DNA of 64,000 bases from Nostoc sp. HK-01 (GTDB lineage: Bacteria; Cyanobacteriota; Cyanobacteriia; Cyanobacteriales; Nostocaceae): contig AP018318.1 in NCBI GenBank assembly GCA_003990705.1, forward strand, positions 3,847,501-3,911,500, given 5' to 3'. This document shows positions 4,378 to 36,665 of this stretch, one piece after another. A program made the translations under genes and the position numbers. Each line of letters starts with the position of its first letter. The first letter of the stretch is position 1. The notes under the pieces are model-generated. The model was not told the DNA's origin. It was given only the letters and a program-made list of their open reading frames with translations, and did no database searches.

Positions 4378-4456
4378 TATAAGTCAATAGTCAATAGATA
4401 ATAATTTTGATTGTTAACTATGGACTTTTGGCTAAATCTAAAACCATGCTTAATTA

Positions 4457-4490
4457 CCCCACCCAATCACCCTTGGGTGGGGTATTTTAT
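4457..4490 (+). terminator. Rho-independent-type terminator
   Basis: CCCCACCC at 4457-4464 pairs perfectly with GGGTGGGG at 4475-4482 across a 10-nt loop and is followed by a T-rich TATTTTAT. It should end the thioredoxin-like transcript and separate it from ndhF. Confidence 0.7.
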
Positions 4491-4530
4491 CATCAGGGGT
4501 GTGTGTCACAATTATTAACAGTTCCGACCT

Positions 4531-4570
4531 GGACAGATGCTTGCGGAGGACAGCCGCCGCAAAACTGTCC
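4531..4570 (+). promoter_or_regulatory. Structured leader of ndhF
   Basis: GGACAG at 4531-4536 pairs with CTGTCC at 4565-4570, and TTGCGG at 4541-4546 pairs with CCGCAA at 4557-4562. This gives a GC-rich two-part stem 37 nt upstream of the ndhF start. There is no T-run, so a role as an mRNA leader element is more likely than termination. No known riboswitch consensus was recognised. Confidence 0.4.
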
Positions 4571-4606
4571 TAAGCTAGTCAAGAATTCTAAAATTACGCG
4601 TCAGTG

Positions 4607-6697
4607 ATGGAAGCAATCTATGAATATGCCTGGCTGATTCCGGTGTTCCCTTTATTAGGGGCAATGCTGGTCGGTTTGGGATTAATTTCGATAAATCAGG
4701 TGACTAACCGCCTGCGGCAACTCAACGCTGTGTTGATTATCTCCTTGATGGGAGCAGCGATGGGTTTGTCCTTTGCCTTGCTATGGAGTCAAATTCAAGG
4801 ACACCCGACTTATCTCCGTACCTTGGAATGGGCAGCAGCGGGAAATTTCCACCTGAGCATGGGCTACACTATTGACCATCTAACCGCCCTCATGCTGGTA
4901 ATTGTGACAACCGTAGCCTTTCTAGTCATGGTTTACACCGATGGCTACATGGCACATGATCCAGGATATGTAAGGTTTTACGCTTATCTAAGCTTATTCG
5001 GTTCCTCAATGTTGGGTCTGGTGGTCAGCCCCAACCTAGTGCAAATTTATATCTTCTGGGAACTGGTGGGGATGTGTTCCTACTTGCTGGTCGGCTTCTG
5101 GTACGATCGCAAGTCAGCGGCAGATGCCTGTCAAAAAGCATTTGTGACCAACCGCGTCGGTGACTTTGGTTTATTACTCGGTATTTTGGGACTGTTTTGG
5201 GCAACTGGCAGCTTTGATTTTCATATCATGGGCGATCGCCTCGCCCAACTAGTGCAATCAGGGACAATCAGCAATTTCCTTGCCGTTCTGTTTGCGATTT
5301 TAGTCTTCCTCGGCCCAGTGGCGAAATCGGCGCAATTCCCTCTCCATGTCTGGCTACCAGACGCGATGGAAGGCCCGACACCCATTTCTGCCTTAATCCA
5401 CGCTGCCACAATGGTGGCTGCGGGTGTGTTCCTGGTTGCTCGGATGTACCCTGTTTTTGAACACGTTCCCGCCGCAATGAACGTCATTGCCTTTACTGGG
5501 GCATTTACGGCATTTTTAGGGGCAACCATTGCGATTACGCAAAACGACATCAAAAAAGGCTTGGCATACTCCACCATCTCCCAATTAGGTTACATGGTGA
5601 TGGCGATGGGAGTAGGCGCTTACAGTGCTGGTTTATTCCACCTGATGACTCACGCTTACTTCAAGGCGATGCTGTTCTTGGGTTCCGGTTCTGTAATTCA
5701 CGGTATGGAGGGAGTTGTCGGTCATGACCCCGCTTTAGCCCAGGATATGCGGCTGATGGGCAAACTGCGGAAATATATGCCCGTCACAGCTACAACCTTC
5801 TTGATTGGTTGCTTGGCAATCTCCGGGATGCCTCCTTTTGCCGGCTTTTGGTCAAAAGATGAAATTCTCGGCAAGGCATTTGAGGCCAATCCATTTCTGT
5901 GGATCATTGGTTGGCTAACTGCTGGGATTACAGCTTTCTACATGTTCAGAATGTATTTCATGACATTTGAAGGCAAATTCCGGGGCAATGACGAGAAAAT
6001 TAAAGACAAGCTCAAAAAAGCATCGACAATCATTCTCGAACTACAAGCCGCAGAACCAGCTCCGAATTTTGGACCTGGGGCAATGAAACACGGTGAACTA
6101 GCTGCCACAGGAGACCATCATGGTTCTCATGGTCATCACAGCGATTCTCCCCATGAATCACCGTGGACAATGACCTTGCCATTAGTAGTGTTGGCTGTGC
6201 CTTCGATTTTGATTGGTTTGGTGGGAACTCCCTTTGCCAATTACTTTGAGGAATTTATTTACTCACCCAACGAAACTCTCAGCGAAGTTCTCGAAAAAGC
6301 CGCCGAGTTTGACCCGACCGAATTTTATATTATGGCGGGGGCTTCAGTGGGGATTTCCTTGATTGGGATTACCTTAGCTTCCTTAATGTACTTGCGCGGG
6401 AAAATCGACCCAGCTGCGATCGCAGCTAAAATCAAACCACTGTACGAGCTATCCCTCAACAAGTGGTACTTTGATGACATTTACCATCGCGTCTTCGTCC
6501 TTGGCTTGCGTCGCCTAGCTAGACAAGTGATGGAAGTTGACTTCCGCGTCGTTGATGGTGCTGTCAACTTGACAGGCTTTTTCACCCTGGTTAGCGGCGA
6601 AGGTCTGAAATATTTAGAAAACGGTCGCGTTCAATTCTATGCCTTAATTGTGTTTGGTGCAGTTTTAGGCTTAGTGATCGTTTTTGGTATCACCTAA
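4607..6697 (+). CDS. ndhF: NAD(P)H-quinone oxidoreductase subunit 5 (NdhF1)
   Basis: Large proton-pumping subunit of the thylakoid NDH-1 complex, 696 residues, with about 16 membrane helices. It belongs to the MrpA/NuoL antiporter-like family. Recognisable stretches are the N-terminal Proton_antipo_N segment (LEWAAAGNFHLSMGY), the core with IYIFWELVGMCSYLLVGFW, HVWLPDAMEGPTPISALIHAATMVAAGVFL and KKGLAYSTISQLGYM, and the lateral helix and C-terminal NdhF extension from about residue 480. A His-rich loop (DHHGSHGHHSDSPHE) lies near residue 503-517. GTG at 4604 and ATG at 4607 are adjacent; ATG is taken. ndhD follows 250 bp downstream, giving the respiratory ndhF1-ndhD1 pair. Confidence 0.96.
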   Translation: MEAIYEYAWLIPVFPLLGAMLVGLGLISINQVTNRLRQLNAVLIISLMGAAMGLSFALLWSQIQGHPTYLRTLEWAAAGNFHLSMGYTIDHLTALMLVIVTTVAFLVMVYTDGYMAHDPGYVRFYAYLSLFGSSMLGLVVSPNLVQIYIFWELVGMCSYLLVGFWYDRKSAADACQKAFVTNRVGDFGLLLGILGLFWATGSFDFHIMGDRLAQLVQSGTISNFLAVLFAILVFLGPVAKSAQFPLHVWLPDAMEGPTPISALIHAATMVAAGVFLVARMYPVFEHVPAAMNVIAFTGAFTAFLGATIAITQNDIKKGLAYSTISQLGYMVMAMGVGAYSAGLFHLMTHAYFKAMLFLGSGSVIHGMEGVVGHDPALAQDMRLMGKLRKYMPVTATTFLIGCLAISGMPPFAGFWSKDEILGKAFEANPFLWIIGWLTAGITAFYMFRMYFMTFEGKFRGNDEKIKDKLKKASTIILELQAAEPAPNFGPGAMKHGELAATGDHHGSHGHHSDSPHESPWTMTLPLVVLAVPSILIGLVGTPFANYFEEFIYSPNETLSEVLEKAAEFDPTEFYIMAGASVGISLIGITLASLMYLRGKIDPAAIAAKIKPLYELSLNKWYFDDIYHRVFVLGLRRLARQVMEVDFRVVDGAVNLTGFFTLVSGEGLKYLENGRVQFYALIVFGAVLGLVIVFGIT

Positions 6698-27493: not shown

Positions 27494-28285
27494 ATGTTGT
27501 TAAGTAGAGAAAAAACAGAATTTTATCTAACAGACTTGGAAACACCTACAGGTAAAATTATCAATCTGACAATTGCCGCTTTAGTGCTAATTTCGTCAGG
27601 AATTTTTGTGGCTCAAACTTATAATATTCCTTATAATATTAGGTTTTTGCTAGATTTAATTGATACTGCTATCCTTGTAATTTTTGCAGTAGAATACATA
27701 ATTCGTTTCTGGAGTGCTGAAAACAAACTTAAGTATATTTTTAGCTTTTATGCAATTATTGATTTAATGGCGATATTGCCCTTTTTTCTCGGCGCAGTAG
27801 ATATCAGTTTTATTCGCCTATTAAGATGGTTTCGTATTTTACGATTAATTAGATTTATTGATCAGAAGTTTTTGTTTGCCAGTATCAGCACAGAAGATGG
27901 TTTAATTTTTGCGCGGATACTGTTTACATTATTTGCCATTATTTTTGTTTATTCGGGGTTAATTTATCAAGTTGAACATCCAGTAAATCCACTCTACACT
28001 ACATTTTTGGATGCGTTTTATTTCTCTGTTGTCACTATGACGACTGTCGGATTTGGGGATATCGCTCCGATTTCTGAAGTCGGTCGTTTGTTAACTGTAT
28101 TGATGATTTTAACAGGTGTAGGCTTAATTCCTTGGCAAGTGGGAGATTTAATTAAGCGTTTGGTAAAAAATGCAAATCAGGTAGAAACAGTGTGTTCAGG
28201 TTGTGGTTTAGCTTTTCATGATATGGATGCAGCTTTTTGTAAAAGATGTGGGACTAAATTGAGAATTGGCAGTGGTGGTGGCTAA
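27494..28285 (+). CDS. Voltage-gated-type potassium channel with C-terminal zinc ribbon
   Basis: Six-helix ion channel of 263 residues. An S4-like arginine helix lies at about 108-121 (RLLRWFRILRLIRF), and the pore loop carries the K+ selectivity filter TVGFGD at 184-189. The last 40 residues leave the membrane and end in a C4 zinc ribbon: CSGCG at 234-238 and CKRCG at 249-253. Such a ribbon is not part of the standard KvAP-type channel and may bind metal or a partner protein. The MNIO operon begins 122 bp downstream on the same strand; a shared purpose is possible but unproven. Confidence 0.88.
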   Translation: MLLSREKTEFYLTDLETPTGKIINLTIAALVLISSGIFVAQTYNIPYNIRFLLDLIDTAILVIFAVEYIIRFWSAENKLKYIFSFYAIIDLMAILPFFLGAVDISFIRLLRWFRILRLIRFIDQKFLFASISTEDGLIFARILFTLFAIIFVYSGLIYQVEHPVNPLYTTFLDAFYFSVVTMTTVGFGDIAPISEVGRLLTVLMILTGVGLIPWQVGDLIKRLVKNANQVETVCSGCGLAFHDMDAAFCKRCGTKLRIGSGGG

Positions 28286-28407: not shown

Positions 28408-29436
28408 ATGGATACATTACTGCATAATCCAGTTGCAGATATGTATGGGCCGAACTTTCTGTTATTGTATGGTGTTGTTATCATCGCAACTTTGTTACTG
28501 TGTGGGCGGTTAGTCCAGGATCCGACAAAAAATCAGCCTTTACCGCTAATTCCGGCGGAACCAGATCCTTACAAAATCGCTTACTTGCGTTCTCAAGCAA
28601 AAGGAATTGCTCATTTAGTATTATTCAACTTGGTGCAGCAAGGCTATTTGCAAGTTAGCGGACAGACTATTAGCAAAATACCCAGCCATCCCGACACATC
28701 AAATTTAGAGCCAATAGAACAGCAAGTATTGGAAAAGTTTTCGGAACCTGCTACAGCTAAAACATCCCTTTTGCTGGCTACCCAGTGTGTACAGTCATTC
28801 TGCATTGCTTATCAAGAACAATTGAATGATGAACAATTGCTGTATGCAGGCAAATGGCAAATATGGAACGTTAAAGTTGGCTTAATTGGGGCAATGCTTA
28901 TTTTGAGCTTAGGCGGTTATAAATTGCTAATAGCTCTGGATAAAGGACGCTATAACGTTAGTTTTTTGATAGTTATGGGTGTATGTTCTATTATCTATCT
29001 GCTGTGGTTTGTGAGCAAGCACCATTCGCCCCTAAGTCATCTGGGAAAAAGGTATTTACAACAACTTCAAACAACCTTCGCGCAACTCATAAAAAAAGCT
29101 AGATATCATATTCCTTCTCTATTTGACTACAACCTGTTAATAGCAATCTTTGGTGTAGAGGCTCTTGCTGGTACTTCCTACGATTCCTATTACAAAGCAT
29201 TCTTTCCACCTACTTATTCTGTAAGAATAAGTAGCCGCACCACTAGCAGATCATCTAATCGTTCAAGTGGTAGTAGTTCTGGTGGTAGTTCATGCAGCAG
29301 TGGTAGTTCTGGATGTAGTTCGTACAGTAGTAGTTTATGCAGCAGTGGTAGTTCTGGCGACAGTTCATGCAGCAGTGGTAGTTCCTGCGGTAGTTCTTGT
29401 GGTGGGGGTTGTGGTGGTTGTGGCGGTGGAGACTAG
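28408..29436 (+). CDS. TIGR04222-type membrane protein with Ser/Gly/Cys-rich tail
   Basis: Membrane protein of 342 residues and first gene of the MNIO operon. The N-terminal part has a membrane helix (FLLLYGVVIIATLLLCGRL), the DPTKNQPLPLIPAEPDPYKIAYLRSQ block typical of the TIGR04222 domain, and two more helices at about 155-203. After a globular stretch, residues 276-342 form a low-complexity tail of Ser, Gly and eight Cys (296, 303, 311, 321, 327, 331, 335, 338), ending GCGGCGGGD. Such tails resemble peptide cores that MNIO enzymes modify. A paralogue with a different tail follows, and the MNIO gene comes next. That the tail is the enzyme's substrate is inferred. Confidence 0.8.
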   Translation: MDTLLHNPVADMYGPNFLLLYGVVIIATLLLCGRLVQDPTKNQPLPLIPAEPDPYKIAYLRSQAKGIAHLVLFNLVQQGYLQVSGQTISKIPSHPDTSNLEPIEQQVLEKFSEPATAKTSLLLATQCVQSFCIAYQEQLNDEQLLYAGKWQIWNVKVGLIGAMLILSLGGYKLLIALDKGRYNVSFLIVMGVCSIIYLLWFVSKHHSPLSHLGKRYLQQLQTTFAQLIKKARYHIPSLFDYNLLIAIFGVEALAGTSYDSYYKAFFPPTYSVRISSRTTSRSSNRSSGSSSGGSSCSSGSSGCSSYSSSLCSSGSSGDSSCSSGSSCGSSCGGGCGGCGGGD

Positions 29437-29506
29437 AGAGAATGTCATCAAGACTTGGACGACAAATGTCATACAACAGGCTGTCTGAAGAATTGAGACT
29501 GAAAGA

Positions 29507-30562
29507 ATGTTAGATAAACCTGTACCAAGCACAATTACAAAATCGGTAATACTCAAGTTACTGATTATTTCAGTGGCGATAGGTTTAGTAGTGGCGATCG
29601 CAACAATAGTACCAGATATGCCTGATCCTGATTTTCTGCTTTTCTATGGTGCTATTGTGACTATCACAGTGCTAGTTAGTAGTTGGCTAGTCCTAGATCC
29701 CACAAAAAATCAATCTTTACCGTTAATTCCTCTTGAACCAGATCCTTACAAAATTGCTTACCTGCGTTCTCAAGAAATCGGAGTCGCTAAGGTAGCAGTG
29801 ATGGACTTGTCACAGCGCGGTTATTTACAAATCACGGAAGAGTTGATTCAGCAAGCGGAAAATCATCCTGATATCTCTTTGCTAACAACAATACAGCGTG
29901 AAGCATTTGATTGGTTTGCTACACCGACAACACCAAGAACATCTGGGTGGTTATTAGCTAGACAATTGCAGCCGCACTGCACAGTTTATCAGCAGCAACT
30001 CCTAAATGAACAACTGCTAACTTCCGACAACCTGAAAGCTAGAACAGAGTTAATCAAATGGATAGGGGCTTCTATCATTGTCGGTTTGGGCGGCTTTAAG
30101 TTGGTAATAGCTTCGTTACATAGTCGCAATAATATGGGTTATCTCGTGCTGATGGGAATATTCTCGTTTTACTTTCTTCAGAATGCCTGTCAGATAACTC
30201 AACATAGAAGTCTACTAGGGGTAGAGTACCTGAAACAACTGGAAGCAACATTTAAGCAATTAAAACAAAAAATTCAAGCTGATATCCCGGAAGCAACTTT
30301 CGCACAGTTAAAACAAAAAGTAGAAATTGGCATTCCTTCTGCGTTTGAATATAACTTGGCTGTAGCACTCTACGGTTTTGATTTACTTGCAGGAACTCGT
30401 TACGACAGATATCAAAATATTTTTGTACCCGTGAGAACTACTACCAGTAGTCAAAATAGTAGTTCTGGCGGCTGTGGCGGAGGGGGATGTAGTGGCGGCG
30501 GTTGTAGCGGTTCCTGCGGTAGCGGTGGTTGTGGGGGTTGTAGCGGTTGTGGCGGAGACTAA
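29507..30562 (+). CDS. TIGR04222-type membrane protein with Gly/Cys-rich tail
   Basis: Paralogue of the preceding protein, 351 residues. It shares the DPTKNQSLPLIPLEPDPYKIAYLRSQ block, the helical pattern, and the 'SAFEYNLAVALYGFDLLAGTRYDRY' segment before the tail. Here there are two N-terminal helices (VILKLLIISVAIGLVVAIA and FYGAIVTITVLVSSWLV). Residues 311-351 form a Gly/Cys-rich tail with seven Cys (323, 328, 333, 337, 342, 345, 348) and little Ser, ending CGGCSGCGGD. It ends 3 bp before the MNIO start, so translation should be coupled. An insertion near residue 255-275 duplicates a 'FxQLKQK' segment (FKQLKQKI, FAQLKQKV). Confidence 0.8.
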   Translation: MLDKPVPSTITKSVILKLLIISVAIGLVVAIATIVPDMPDPDFLLFYGAIVTITVLVSSWLVLDPTKNQSLPLIPLEPDPYKIAYLRSQEIGVAKVAVMDLSQRGYLQITEELIQQAENHPDISLLTTIQREAFDWFATPTTPRTSGWLLARQLQPHCTVYQQQLLNEQLLTSDNLKARTELIKWIGASIIVGLGGFKLVIASLHSRNNMGYLVLMGIFSFYFLQNACQITQHRSLLGVEYLKQLEATFKQLKQKIQADIPEATFAQLKQKVEIGIPSAFEYNLAVALYGFDLLAGTRYDRYQNIFVPVRTTTSSQNSSSGGCGGGGCSGGGCSGSCGSGGCGGCSGCGGD

Positions 30563-30565
30563 AAA

Positions 30566-31390
30566 ATGATGTTATCTCAACTTCCTACTTTGGGTGTCGG
30601 GTTGGGTTTTCGAGAACCATTCAAAAGTGATTTGTTTCTCAACCGTCAACAGGTGGACTTTCTGGAAATTGTGGCGGAACATTATCTTGATGCACCAGTA
30701 CAAAAACAACAAGAGTTAGAAATACTGGCTGCACATTTCCCGATAATTCCCCACGCCATTAATTTGTCGCTGGGTAGTGCGGAAGGTTTAGATACAGATT
30801 ATTTACGCAAACTTGCAACCTTAATTAAACAACTTAACCCGCCTTGGTGGAGTGAACATATTTGTTTTACCAAAGCTGGCGGTGTGGATATTGGGCATTT
30901 ATCACCATTACCTTACACCAAAGAGGCGGTAGATATACTCTGTCGCAATATTGCCGAAGTGCGGCGCTTTGTTGATGTGCCGTTAATTTTGGAAAATATT
31001 ACCTATATGGTAAAACTTCCTGGTGCAGAGATGACCGAAGCCCAATTTTTGGCAGAAGTGGTAGAACGTGGTGACTGTGGGTTGCTGTTGGATGTGACAA
31101 ATTTACATACCAATGCGGTGAATTATGGTTATGATGTGCATGATTTTCTCAATGATTTACCTTGGGAACGTGTTGTACAGTTACATTTCGTTGGTGGACA
31201 TTGGCATGATGGCGTATTAATTGACAGTCATTCCCAGTCCACACCAACCGAAGTCTGGCAAATAATGGAGGAAGTTGTAGGCCGTATTCCGGTGAAAGGG
31301 ATAGTGTTAGAACGGGATGAAAATTTACCCCCGTTCACAGAAATAGCCCAAGAATTGCAAACAGCACGAGAAATTGGTAGGAGTCATTAA
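30566..31390 (+). CDS. DUF692 family multinuclear non-heme iron enzyme (MNIO)
   Basis: Cytoplasmic TIM-barrel enzyme of 274 residues of the DUF692/MNIO family (relatives: MbnB, TglH, BufB, ChrH), which modify Cys and other residues of peptides. Family metal-site candidates are present: His63 in PHAINLSLG, Glu97-His98 in WWSEHICF, His111 in GHLSPLPY, Glu143-Asn144 in LENITY, Asp176 and His181 in LLLDVTNLH, His207 in QLHFVGG, Asp220-His222 in LIDSHSQ, and Glu249 in VLERD. The gene lies 3 bp after the second Cys-tail gene and 2 bp before the partner gene. The obvious candidate substrates are the two Cys-rich tails. Confidence 0.9.
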   Translation: MMLSQLPTLGVGLGFREPFKSDLFLNRQQVDFLEIVAEHYLDAPVQKQQELEILAAHFPIIPHAINLSLGSAEGLDTDYLRKLATLIKQLNPPWWSEHICFTKAGGVDIGHLSPLPYTKEAVDILCRNIAEVRRFVDVPLILENITYMVKLPGAEMTEAQFLAEVVERGDCGLLLDVTNLHTNAVNYGYDVHDFLNDLPWERVVQLHFVGGHWHDGVLIDSHSQSTPTEVWQIMEEVVGRIPVKGIVLERDENLPPFTEIAQELQTAREIGRSH

Positions 31391-31392
31391 AG

Positions 31393-32031
31393 ATGGGGTT
31401 AGCACAAACCCAGCAAGTTTTAGCCCAGCTTTACACTAATGCTGAATTTCGAGAGCGTTTTTTTACTAACCCGCAAGCGGTGGGTGTGGAGTTTGGTTTG
31501 AGTGATGATGAAGCGCAGCAGTTAGCGGAAGTTTCATCGCAGGAAGTCAATATATTTGCCAATTCTCTCAAGTGGAAGCGGTTAGGGGAAATACGGGAAT
31601 TATTACCTAGAACAGCTAAGGCGTTGGGGAAAAATTTTAATACTTTGTTTTGGCGATATGCAGAGACTTATTTACCCACGGGGATTAAAAAACATCGGGA
31701 TGATGCGATCGCTTTTGCTAACTTTATGATTAAGGTGGCGCAAAATGAAAATTTAGCACCTGCTTGGATAGGTGATTTAGTCAGGTATGAAAAAACTTGG
31801 CTTTTAGCTTATCAACCAGGAATTTGCTTGAAATTCTGTTGGTTGCGTTACGCTGTTCATCGTGATTTTACAGCAAAACCAACTTTGGCAATTTGGTGGC
31901 GTTTATCGGGGCGATCGCAATTACGTCATATAATATTACCTCACGCAGAGGAGGACACTTGCGTGGGCGGGTTTCCCGAATTGAGCAAAGTGTCCGTCGC
32001 GCAGAGTCGCGGAGAGTATCAGGAGTTATAG
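31393..32031 (+). CDS. Putative MNIO partner protein, C-terminus remade by a repeat
   Basis: Protein of 212 residues, mostly helical, 2 bp after the MNIO gene. MNIO enzymes commonly need a partner (MbnC, TglI or DUF2063/HvfC-type) for substrate recognition, and position suggests this role. I do not recognise a defined domain; visible are the N-terminal LYTNAEFRERFFTNPQAVGVEFGLSDDEAQQLAEVS helix pair and a basic aromatic region (LRYAVHRDFTAKPTLAIWWRL). The last 25 or so codons come from a dispersed palindrome (31953-31995) with flanking CGCAGAG repeats, so the native C-terminus probably ended near residue 187. Confidence 0.6.
   Translation: MGLAQTQQVLAQLYTNAEFRERFFTNPQAVGVEFGLSDDEAQQLAEVSSQEVNIFANSLKWKRLGEIRELLPRTAKALGKNFNTLFWRYAETYLPTGIKKHRDDAIAFANFMIKVAQNENLAPAWIGDLVRYEKTWLLAYQPGICLKFCWLRYAVHRDFTAKPTLAIWWRLSGRSQLRHIILPHAEEDTCVGGFPELSKVSVAQSRGEYQEL
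31953..31995. repeat. Dispersed palindrome inside a coding end
   Basis: GGACACTTGC at 31953-31962 mirrors GCAAAGTGTCC at 31985-31995, with GTGGGCGGGTTTCCCG between them. The core matches a palindromic repeat frequent in Nostoc intergenic DNA. Flanking CGCAGAG and CGCAGAGTCGCGGAGAG are a second repeat type. It lies in frame within the end of the partner gene. Confidence 0.6.

Positions 32032-32936: not shown

Positions 32937-36661
<3,725 letters not shown>

Positions 36662-36665
<4 letters not shown>

Follow-up and report, generated by a model that had tools for sequence, protein, structure and literature searches.

What is an enzyme of the MNIO (DUF692) family, iron enzymes with members known for the oxidative remodeling of cysteines, doing immediately behind two membrane proteins that end in cysteine-rich tails? 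The question is raised by a four-gene locus of Nostoc sp. HK-01, found in a window (the whole stretch of DNA analyzed here) of 64,000 nucleotides from contig AP018318.1 (assembly GCA_003990705.1, forward-strand positions 3,847,501 to 3,911,500). All four open reading frames (ORFs) are on the + strand. The first two, T1 (window 28408..29436, 342 aa) and T2 (29507..30562, 351 aa), are paralogous membrane proteins that both pass the 43-bit cut-off of TIGR04222 (near_uncomplex), at 88 and 56 bits, and are members of that family; their only other profile matches are to Pfam DUF2207_C/DUF742, below threshold, and NCBIfam gives TIGR04222 alone. Each ends in a candidate modified region: the T1 tail (29221..29433, residues 272-342) is Ser/Gly/Cys-rich, holds 8 Cys and stops in CGGCGGGD, and the T2 tail (30437..30559, about residues 311-351) holds 7 Cys and stops in CSGCGGD. 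Three base pairs beyond T2 begins the MNIO gene (30566..31390, 274 aa), whose 302 bits against PF05114 (cut-off 25 bits), together with its conserved positions, place it in the MNIO superfamily, and 2 bp further on begins P (31393..32031, 212 aa), a candidate partner protein of the PME-type 2 kind. A sequence-only reading of this DNA had described just this arrangement, and the reading frames and profile scores bear it out. At E <= 0.001, TIGR04222 matches the whole genome twice and the MNIO profile once, in every case at this locus, and PF09836 (DUF2063) has no match anywhere in it.

The answer we favor, at a probability of about 0.6, is that a membrane-tethered tail with several Cys undergoes modification at the cytoplasmic side of the membrane, probably so that it can bind metal. 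The locus would be a three-part modification cassette: T1 and T2 would sit in the membrane as integral proteins, with their disordered Cys/Ser/Gly tails reaching into the cytoplasm, where a soluble MNIO, held by P, would oxidatively modify several Cys per tail. P would probably position the tail, its leader-like N-terminal domain doing the job of a leader peptide. The product would remain attached to the cytoplasmic membrane on its inner side and most likely act as a sponge or sensor that chelates metal (Cu(I)-type) at many sites. Gene order and its conservation, the MNIO with its conserved residues, the retention of the tail on swapped scaffolds, the charge bias and the fold of T1 are computed results. 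From the comparisons below, it is probable that the tail is the MNIO substrate; metal binding by the tail, which is argued from analogy, is a tentative proposal.

The strongest evidence is the conservation of the cassette. Among 386 cyanobacterial genomes (E <= 0.001), TIGR04222 is found in 22, MNIO in 28 and both in 10, and among 291 genomes of a second phylum (that of G405 and G414, the latter a metagenome-assembled genome titled Armatimonadetes; G and L numbers are our handles), TIGR04222 over its cut-off is found in 22, MNIO (E <= 0.001) in 18 and both in 7; the hypergeometric P values, 3e-7 and 1e-4, ignore relatedness. Co-occurrence, which the sequence-only reading had proposed as a check, is thus above chance in both phyla. 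The two genes are adjacent in 9 of the 10 cyanobacterial genomes that have both, the tenth (G360) having them on different contigs, and all 9 loci share an MNIO, a P and one to three copies of T, although the flanking genes differ, with three or more contexts represented. In the second phylum, 8 MNIO matches are full-profile ones, of which 7 have a T no more than about 2 kb away. A scan of genome contigs, seeded by two short MNIO peptide motifs and so favoring near relatives, gave 57 loci, 54 of them with a full-length MNIO (43-96% identical); L133 and L135 have only partial or remote MNIO matches, and L134 has a cut MNIO after a Cys-tailed T. A P homologue adjoins the MNIO in 53 of the 54, the exception (L105) stopping at a contig edge. 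A Cys-tailed T lies upstream in 39 of the 54, each locus with at least one tail holding at least 4 Cys in its last 70 residues, mostly within 300 bp of the MNIO, at about 0.9 kb in L095 and 1.0 kb in L090. Elsewhere, the T is across a contig break (L122, whose MNIO starts in L141) or in trans, as a short Cys-tailed protein in L099 and L115 and a long one in L117 and L132. On plasmids, tblastn with the MNIO gave 354 records, all below 60% identity, and three actinobacterial records (H2, H3 and H13) were examined of 15 listed: Nonomuraea (L228) has two Cys-tailed T before the MNIO, in Tsukamurella (L230) a T is accompanied by an MNIO and a small gene, and Streptomyces (L229) is an exception taken up below. 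The TIGR04222 gene of L230, a Tsukamurella tyrosinosolvens plasmid, is annotated at 1064-2995 and matches the T model in two stretches, with a second, out-of-frame Cys-tail reading frame mid-gene. Judged by record titles and taxonomy, T-type cassettes occur in Cyanobacteriota, Armatimonadota, Acidobacteriota, Myxococcota, Planctomycetota, Verrucomicrobiota and Actinomycetota.

A second line of evidence comes from loci in which the membrane scaffold has been replaced or stripped. In L118, the MNIO-P pair and a nucleotidyltransferase-like (NT-like) gene are followed by proteins of 67 aa, with one hydrophobic helix, and 87 aa, with two, both carrying a Cys/Gly/Ser tail; L124 has a 65-aa one-helix protein ending in the same tail, and the L123 genome has an 88-aa mini-tail protein on another stretch than its MNIO locus. 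These three genomes are Verrucomicrobiota without a TIGR04222 match, and three mini-tail proteins that were scanned matched no NCBIfam model at E <= 0.1. (YxzE was considered as a mini-tail relative and rejected, at a Pfam score of 23.7 bits against a cut-off of 40 for one of the three mini-tails scanned; what the available portions of PMC3498285 and PMC12563154 say of YxzE regulation in Bacillus is not used as evidence.) The NT-like gene follows P in L118, L123 and L124 and is a neighbor in the T-type loci L106, L107, L110 and L116, seven loci that are all non-cyanobacterial (PF01909 at E 0.09 in L106, no match in L118), and its presence in both locus types ties the T and mini types together. 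Stripping is seen in cyanobacterial L058, where the T directly before MNIO-P has neither the soluble domain nor the fourth hydrophobic segment but retains the other three segments, the tail and a flank of Lys/Arg; in G118 (L072), a long T without an MNIO is likewise short of the soluble domain. Since the scaffold is swapped or stripped while tail and anchor are kept, tail plus membrane anchor is the part that the cassette retains.

The tails themselves are uniform in composition. Within the last 60 residues of MNIO-linked T, Gly or Ser precedes Cys in 494 of 508 cases and follows it in 494 of 508, and a terminal C-GG-C-GG-like pattern is present in 80 of 96 T rows. The 96 rows are redundant and comprise 70 short and 2 long T linked to an MNIO (the two long ones being one genome seen twice) and 3 short and 21 long T that are not; a Fisher test gives 6e-16 on these redundant rows, with relatedness ignored. 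G360 is scored as MNIO-less, since its MNIOs are not adjacent. The underlying alignment holds 21 of the 28 cyanobacterial T matches, omitting G253, G237 (two pieces), G118 and three from G053, a genome with 9% contamination whose omitted T are one short (4 tail Cys, no MNIO) and two Cys-less; T hits of 100 bits or less in the 57 loci, such as the second T of L119, are also omitted. The second-phylum rows come from the 22 genomes over the cut-off, the G416 row being a fragment without its C-terminus. MNIO-linked tails are richer in Cys, with a median of 7 against 5 in MNIO-less T. Of the short MNIO-less T, that of G334 has lost its tail, that of G452 reaches a contig end, and that of G629 keeps 6 tail Cys.

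The long T show that the relationship is not exclusive. Among the 21 MNIO-less long T, 16 hold at least 4 Cys within the last 60 residues, and the notion of a Cys tail strictly tied to MNIO was rejected on that account: long T keep their tails without an MNIO, so the tail has some MNIO-independent role. The claim of the sequence-only reading that the membrane proteins are the substrates is thus upheld in part, with the conserved cassette, the scaffold swaps and the clade-bound MNIO pointing that way and the partial independence of the tail standing against it. The extra N-terminal domain of the long T (about 170 aa, e.g., L074:6739-8331, - strand) has a W, H, H, C, H and H invariant in 21 of 21 sequences, in the order W-H-x-H, C, HH, and looks metal-binding or catalytic from these residues; five proteins scanned gave no domain match at the Pfam cut-offs, and a DUF1399/GRDP label, for which those scans gave no such match, is not used. 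This fused domain may stand in for the MNIO. A broader version, in which the system is scaffold-blind, works with a leader in trans, at the cytoplasmic face, on any membrane-anchored Cys/Gly/Ser tail (borne by TIGR04222, a stripped form of it or one helix), and has its MNIO replaced by the W-H-x-H...C...HH domain acting in cis in long T, is rather unlikely, but if true, the product would be a protein-attached, membrane-bound cofactor or metal sponge, akin to the ribosomally synthesized and post-translationally modified peptides (RiPPs), and not a released peptide.

Topology bears on where the tail lies. In the AlphaFold2 model of T1 (predicted local distance difference test [pLDDT] 77.5, predicted TM-score 0.64), a short N-terminus, predicted outside, leads into transmembrane helix TM1 (14-35), a soluble helix/hairpin domain (54-141), TM2 (148-179), TM3 (184-204), a Lys/Arg-rich stretch, short helices and a disordered tail. 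A fold search against the PDB gave 81 matches at E <= 10 and none at E <= 0.001. With three long hydrophobic helices and the domain between TM1 and TM2, soluble domain and tail come out on one side. T2, judged by hydropathy, differs in one extra N-terminal hydrophobic segment and a Lys-containing N-terminus. Charge was read by the positive-inside rule, and candidate lipoprotein motifs by the lipobox consensus. In 59 non-redundant short T, the stretch of about 17 residues ahead of TM1 averages 0.22 Lys/Arg and the 31 residues that follow TM3 average 6.4, and Lys/Arg density favors a tail inside in 70 of 79 T. Of 21 long T, 19 have an internal lipobox-like motif where an additional helix, TM0, ends, which would put the adjoining loop outside and the tail inside. 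The motif, carried by L068, L069, L071, L073-L076, L078 and the second-phylum long T, ends in GC, SC or AC and lies well over 100 residues from the N-terminus, an unusual, internal position. In the one-helix mini-anchors, RR or K comes soon after the helix. We consider it likely that the tail is on the cytoplasmic side, against the published periplasmic placement.

P is more than the small helical protein of the sequence-only reading. Its model does have predicted helices, which are followed by three strands, but its N-terminus (31411..31569, residues 7-59) matches NF038399, of the NHLP clan, in 16 of 21 aligned members (best E 5e-10), the window copy included at 34.8 bits, under the curated cut-off of 40. 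This N-terminus also has weak profile matches among PDB sequences to the nitrile hydratase alpha subunit (E 0.009 over the whole sequence but 0.82 over its best stretch) and to the SonA precursor (E about 0.08). From such matches, the N-terminus of P resembles the leader (NHLP) domains of RiPPs. As to the earlier remark that no leader peptide is visible, T1 and T2 have only their TIGR04222 and sub-threshold Pfam matches; the leader-like domain is on P. That P acts as a leader in trans is a suggestion we regard as doubtful, and a narrow literature search (nitrile hydratase with MNIO and the RiPP recognition element, RRE) turned up no published account of an MNIO partner that bears a leader-like domain. 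The profile built from 21 partners matched neither 3dee nor 8hi7 at E <= 10, and with it no MNIO partner was found among solved structures. At its 3' end (window about 31940-32031), P is 16 residues longer than in the near relative L059, and this stretch, which contains a GGGCGGGTTTCCCGA motif present once in the window, looks like a small insertion.

The MNIO itself is intact. Alignments show that it keeps H63, H98, E143, D176, H207, D220, H222 and E249, His/Glu/Asp positions common to MbnB (7dz9), TglH (8hci) and 3bww, which we take to be the iron ligands; all eight are invariant in 9 of 9 cassette copies. TglH aligns over residues 9-250 at 119 bits, and the nearest relative, 96% identical, is in Nostoc sp. 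LEGE 06077. In the MNIO tree, which was made without weak or unfetched matches of both phyla (e.g., L053 and L196), the T and mini loci fall within one 70-row part (93/93), with the long-branched L194 beside it; the remaining cyanobacterial MNIOs on the tree fall outside, except that of L058 with its stripped T. For the T label, 5 changes are still required on this tree.

How far is this new? That the Cys tails of TIGR04222 proteins are MNIO substrates was proposed in silico by Antoine et al. 2025 (PMC12452194), and the substrate idea is therefore a re-discovery. To judge from the available portion of that paper, our locus shares with their TIGR04222-MNIO-PME-type 2 clusters the membrane family, the Cys/Ser/Gly tails, the adjacent MNIO and a non-DUF2063 partner; a Cys-tailed TIGR04222 protein beside an MNIO is what defines the clusters, and their partner is described as a DUF2063-like helical domain followed by an RRE or truncated RRE fold. 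There, the tail is placed in the periplasm and the TIGR04222 proteins are mostly from Actinomycetota, the string "cyanobacter" occurring 0 times in the main text. Not contained in that portion are the stripped T and the mini-anchors, the division of T into short ones with and long ones without an MNIO, the internal lipobox and the NHLP-like partner domain. The captophorins/fontiphorin and EGKCG peptides (PMC13097082, likewise from the portion available) combine an MNIO with an RRE-type partner, and in these copper-associated systems a single chain can have 5-thiooxazole at several of its Cys-Gly sites. However, those are peptides with a PME-type 1 partner, whereas here Gly/Ser-Cys-Gly/Ser tails are borne on membrane proteins, and 5-thiooxazole-type chemistry may apply only by analogy with captophorins. 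The available portion of PMC12710340 has nothing on the family under study. Bufferins, with BufB and a DUF2063 partner, are alike in their Cys-bearing substrates, and BufB is the best-scoring curated model for our MNIO, although at 245.9 bits it is under the equivalog cut-off of 310; in contrast to bufferins, there is no DUF2063 here and the candidate substrates look like multi-helix membrane proteins. A precursor with a Sec signal peptide is a further trait of bufferins. The TglH-TglI pair of the pearlin pathway likewise joins an MNIO to a non-DUF2063 partner. That pathway uses a carrier peptide, excises a Cys beta-carbon and is not known to involve a membrane anchor. Thiazole/oxazole peptides of the YcaO type, such as microcin B17, have a Gly/Ser/Cys-rich core; our tails share that microcin-like composition, but no such enzymes were seen among the genes around the locus. 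The only other gene found in the genome with a CGGC[G/S]G pattern does lie among ORFs that by eye resemble a YcaO-type cluster, with its own enzymes. In that stretch (L225:4776-11050, outside the window), a precursor of 125 aa with CGGC/CRGC repeats has ThiF-, YcaO- and SagB-type proteins and an ABC transporter, again by eye, as its neighbors, as in a thiazole/oxazole peptide cluster.

Several results weigh against modification of cytoplasmic tails by the MNIO, and with them the alternatives have to be judged. L120, L121, L125, L127, L128, L130 and L131, all draft genomes, have MNIO and P and gave no T or tail with the motifs searched; they group with L117 and L132 in one verrucomicrobial-type MNIO subclade. 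The Streptomyces plasmid is a clear exception, in that its MNIO has a Cys-less T downstream (4448-5254) and P is matched there only weakly (E 0.0014), and the second T of L119 (4018-4917), beside an MNIO, also has no Cys tail. No metal-efflux gene was recognized by eye in the 40 largest neighbor clusters, for which no family search was made. To these are added the poor model of P (pLDDT 53), the sub-cut-off leader-domain score of its window copy, the Cys kept by most MNIO-less long T, and 9 of 79 T in which Lys/Arg density does not favor a tail inside; 8 of the 9 are long T, whose 5-residue turn between TM2 and TM3 weighs heavily in the density. The Cys-less T and the subclade with no T nearby would suit a scheme in which a small precursor encoded elsewhere is the target of MNIO and P, with T as an accessory for immunity, transport or assembly. 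We judge this very unlikely: the window genome has one MNIO, no DUF2063 and, as the only other gene with the tail pattern, one in a YcaO-like cluster. Moreover, an unrelated substrate gene co-occurring with this MNIO clade, which the sequence-only reading had named as grounds for abandoning its proposal, was not seen across clades in the 40 largest neighbor clusters of the 57 loci (ORFs >= 60 aa), though smaller precursors without a Cys/Gly/Ser tail could escape such a search.

The more serious rival is that the tails are plain metal-binding or redox elements that are never modified, with MNIO and P modifying some other residue of T or regulating it and the tail having a role independent of both. 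The tails of the long T fit this, as do the 6 and 4 tail Cys retained by the short MNIO-less T of G629 and the contaminated G053, but it leaves unexplained why short T are nearly confined to MNIO loci, why MNIO-linked tails hold more Cys, why a replaced or stripped scaffold leaves tail and membrane anchor beside MNIO-P, and why the short T of G334, without an MNIO, has lost its tail; on balance, we hold it to be unlikely. That the tails are functionless expansions of low-complexity repeats can be entertained on account of the tandem repeats that make up their DNA, that of T1 included, and of their widely varying length. With the Cys and terminal pattern kept across phyla (80 of 96 T) and carried by unrelated anchors, this is the least credible of the alternatives. 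Finally, the tail could be periplasmic, a bufferin-like chelator exported with T after modification or without it. Such an orientation was read by Antoine et al. (PMC12452194) for selected TIGR04222 proteins from AlphaFold2 and predicted topology, and T1 does have a further hydrophobic segment at 235-253 (mean best 19-residue Kyte-Doolittle value of about 1.5 in short T). But in the model that segment is only an 11-residue helix (238-248), short and broken, and it is lost in L058; the charge distribution, the internal lipobox of the long T and the RR/K of the mini-anchors all point the other way, and modification by a soluble enzyme of the cytoplasm would have to precede export. We therefore see a periplasmic tail as quite improbable, and a cytoplasmic one would remove the puzzle of how a soluble enzyme would reach the periplasm.

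If tethered tails are indeed the substrates, MNIO chemistry would extend from released peptides to the permanently membrane-tethered tails of integral membrane proteins, and the natural minimal anchors, of 65-88 aa, would be small and tractable substrates for its study.

Two features of the surroundings may be added. Upstream of T1, at window 27494-28285, is an ion-channel gene with a zinc-ribbon-like end. In the 57-locus scan, 20 of the 27 cyanobacterial loci have a homologue of it close to the cassette, and 0 of the remaining loci do. Downstream, a 45-bp tandem repeat of 3.8 copies (window 33992-34164) lies in frame within a 1242-aa gene (32937-36665) that is presumably pyruvate:flavodoxin oxidoreductase-like.

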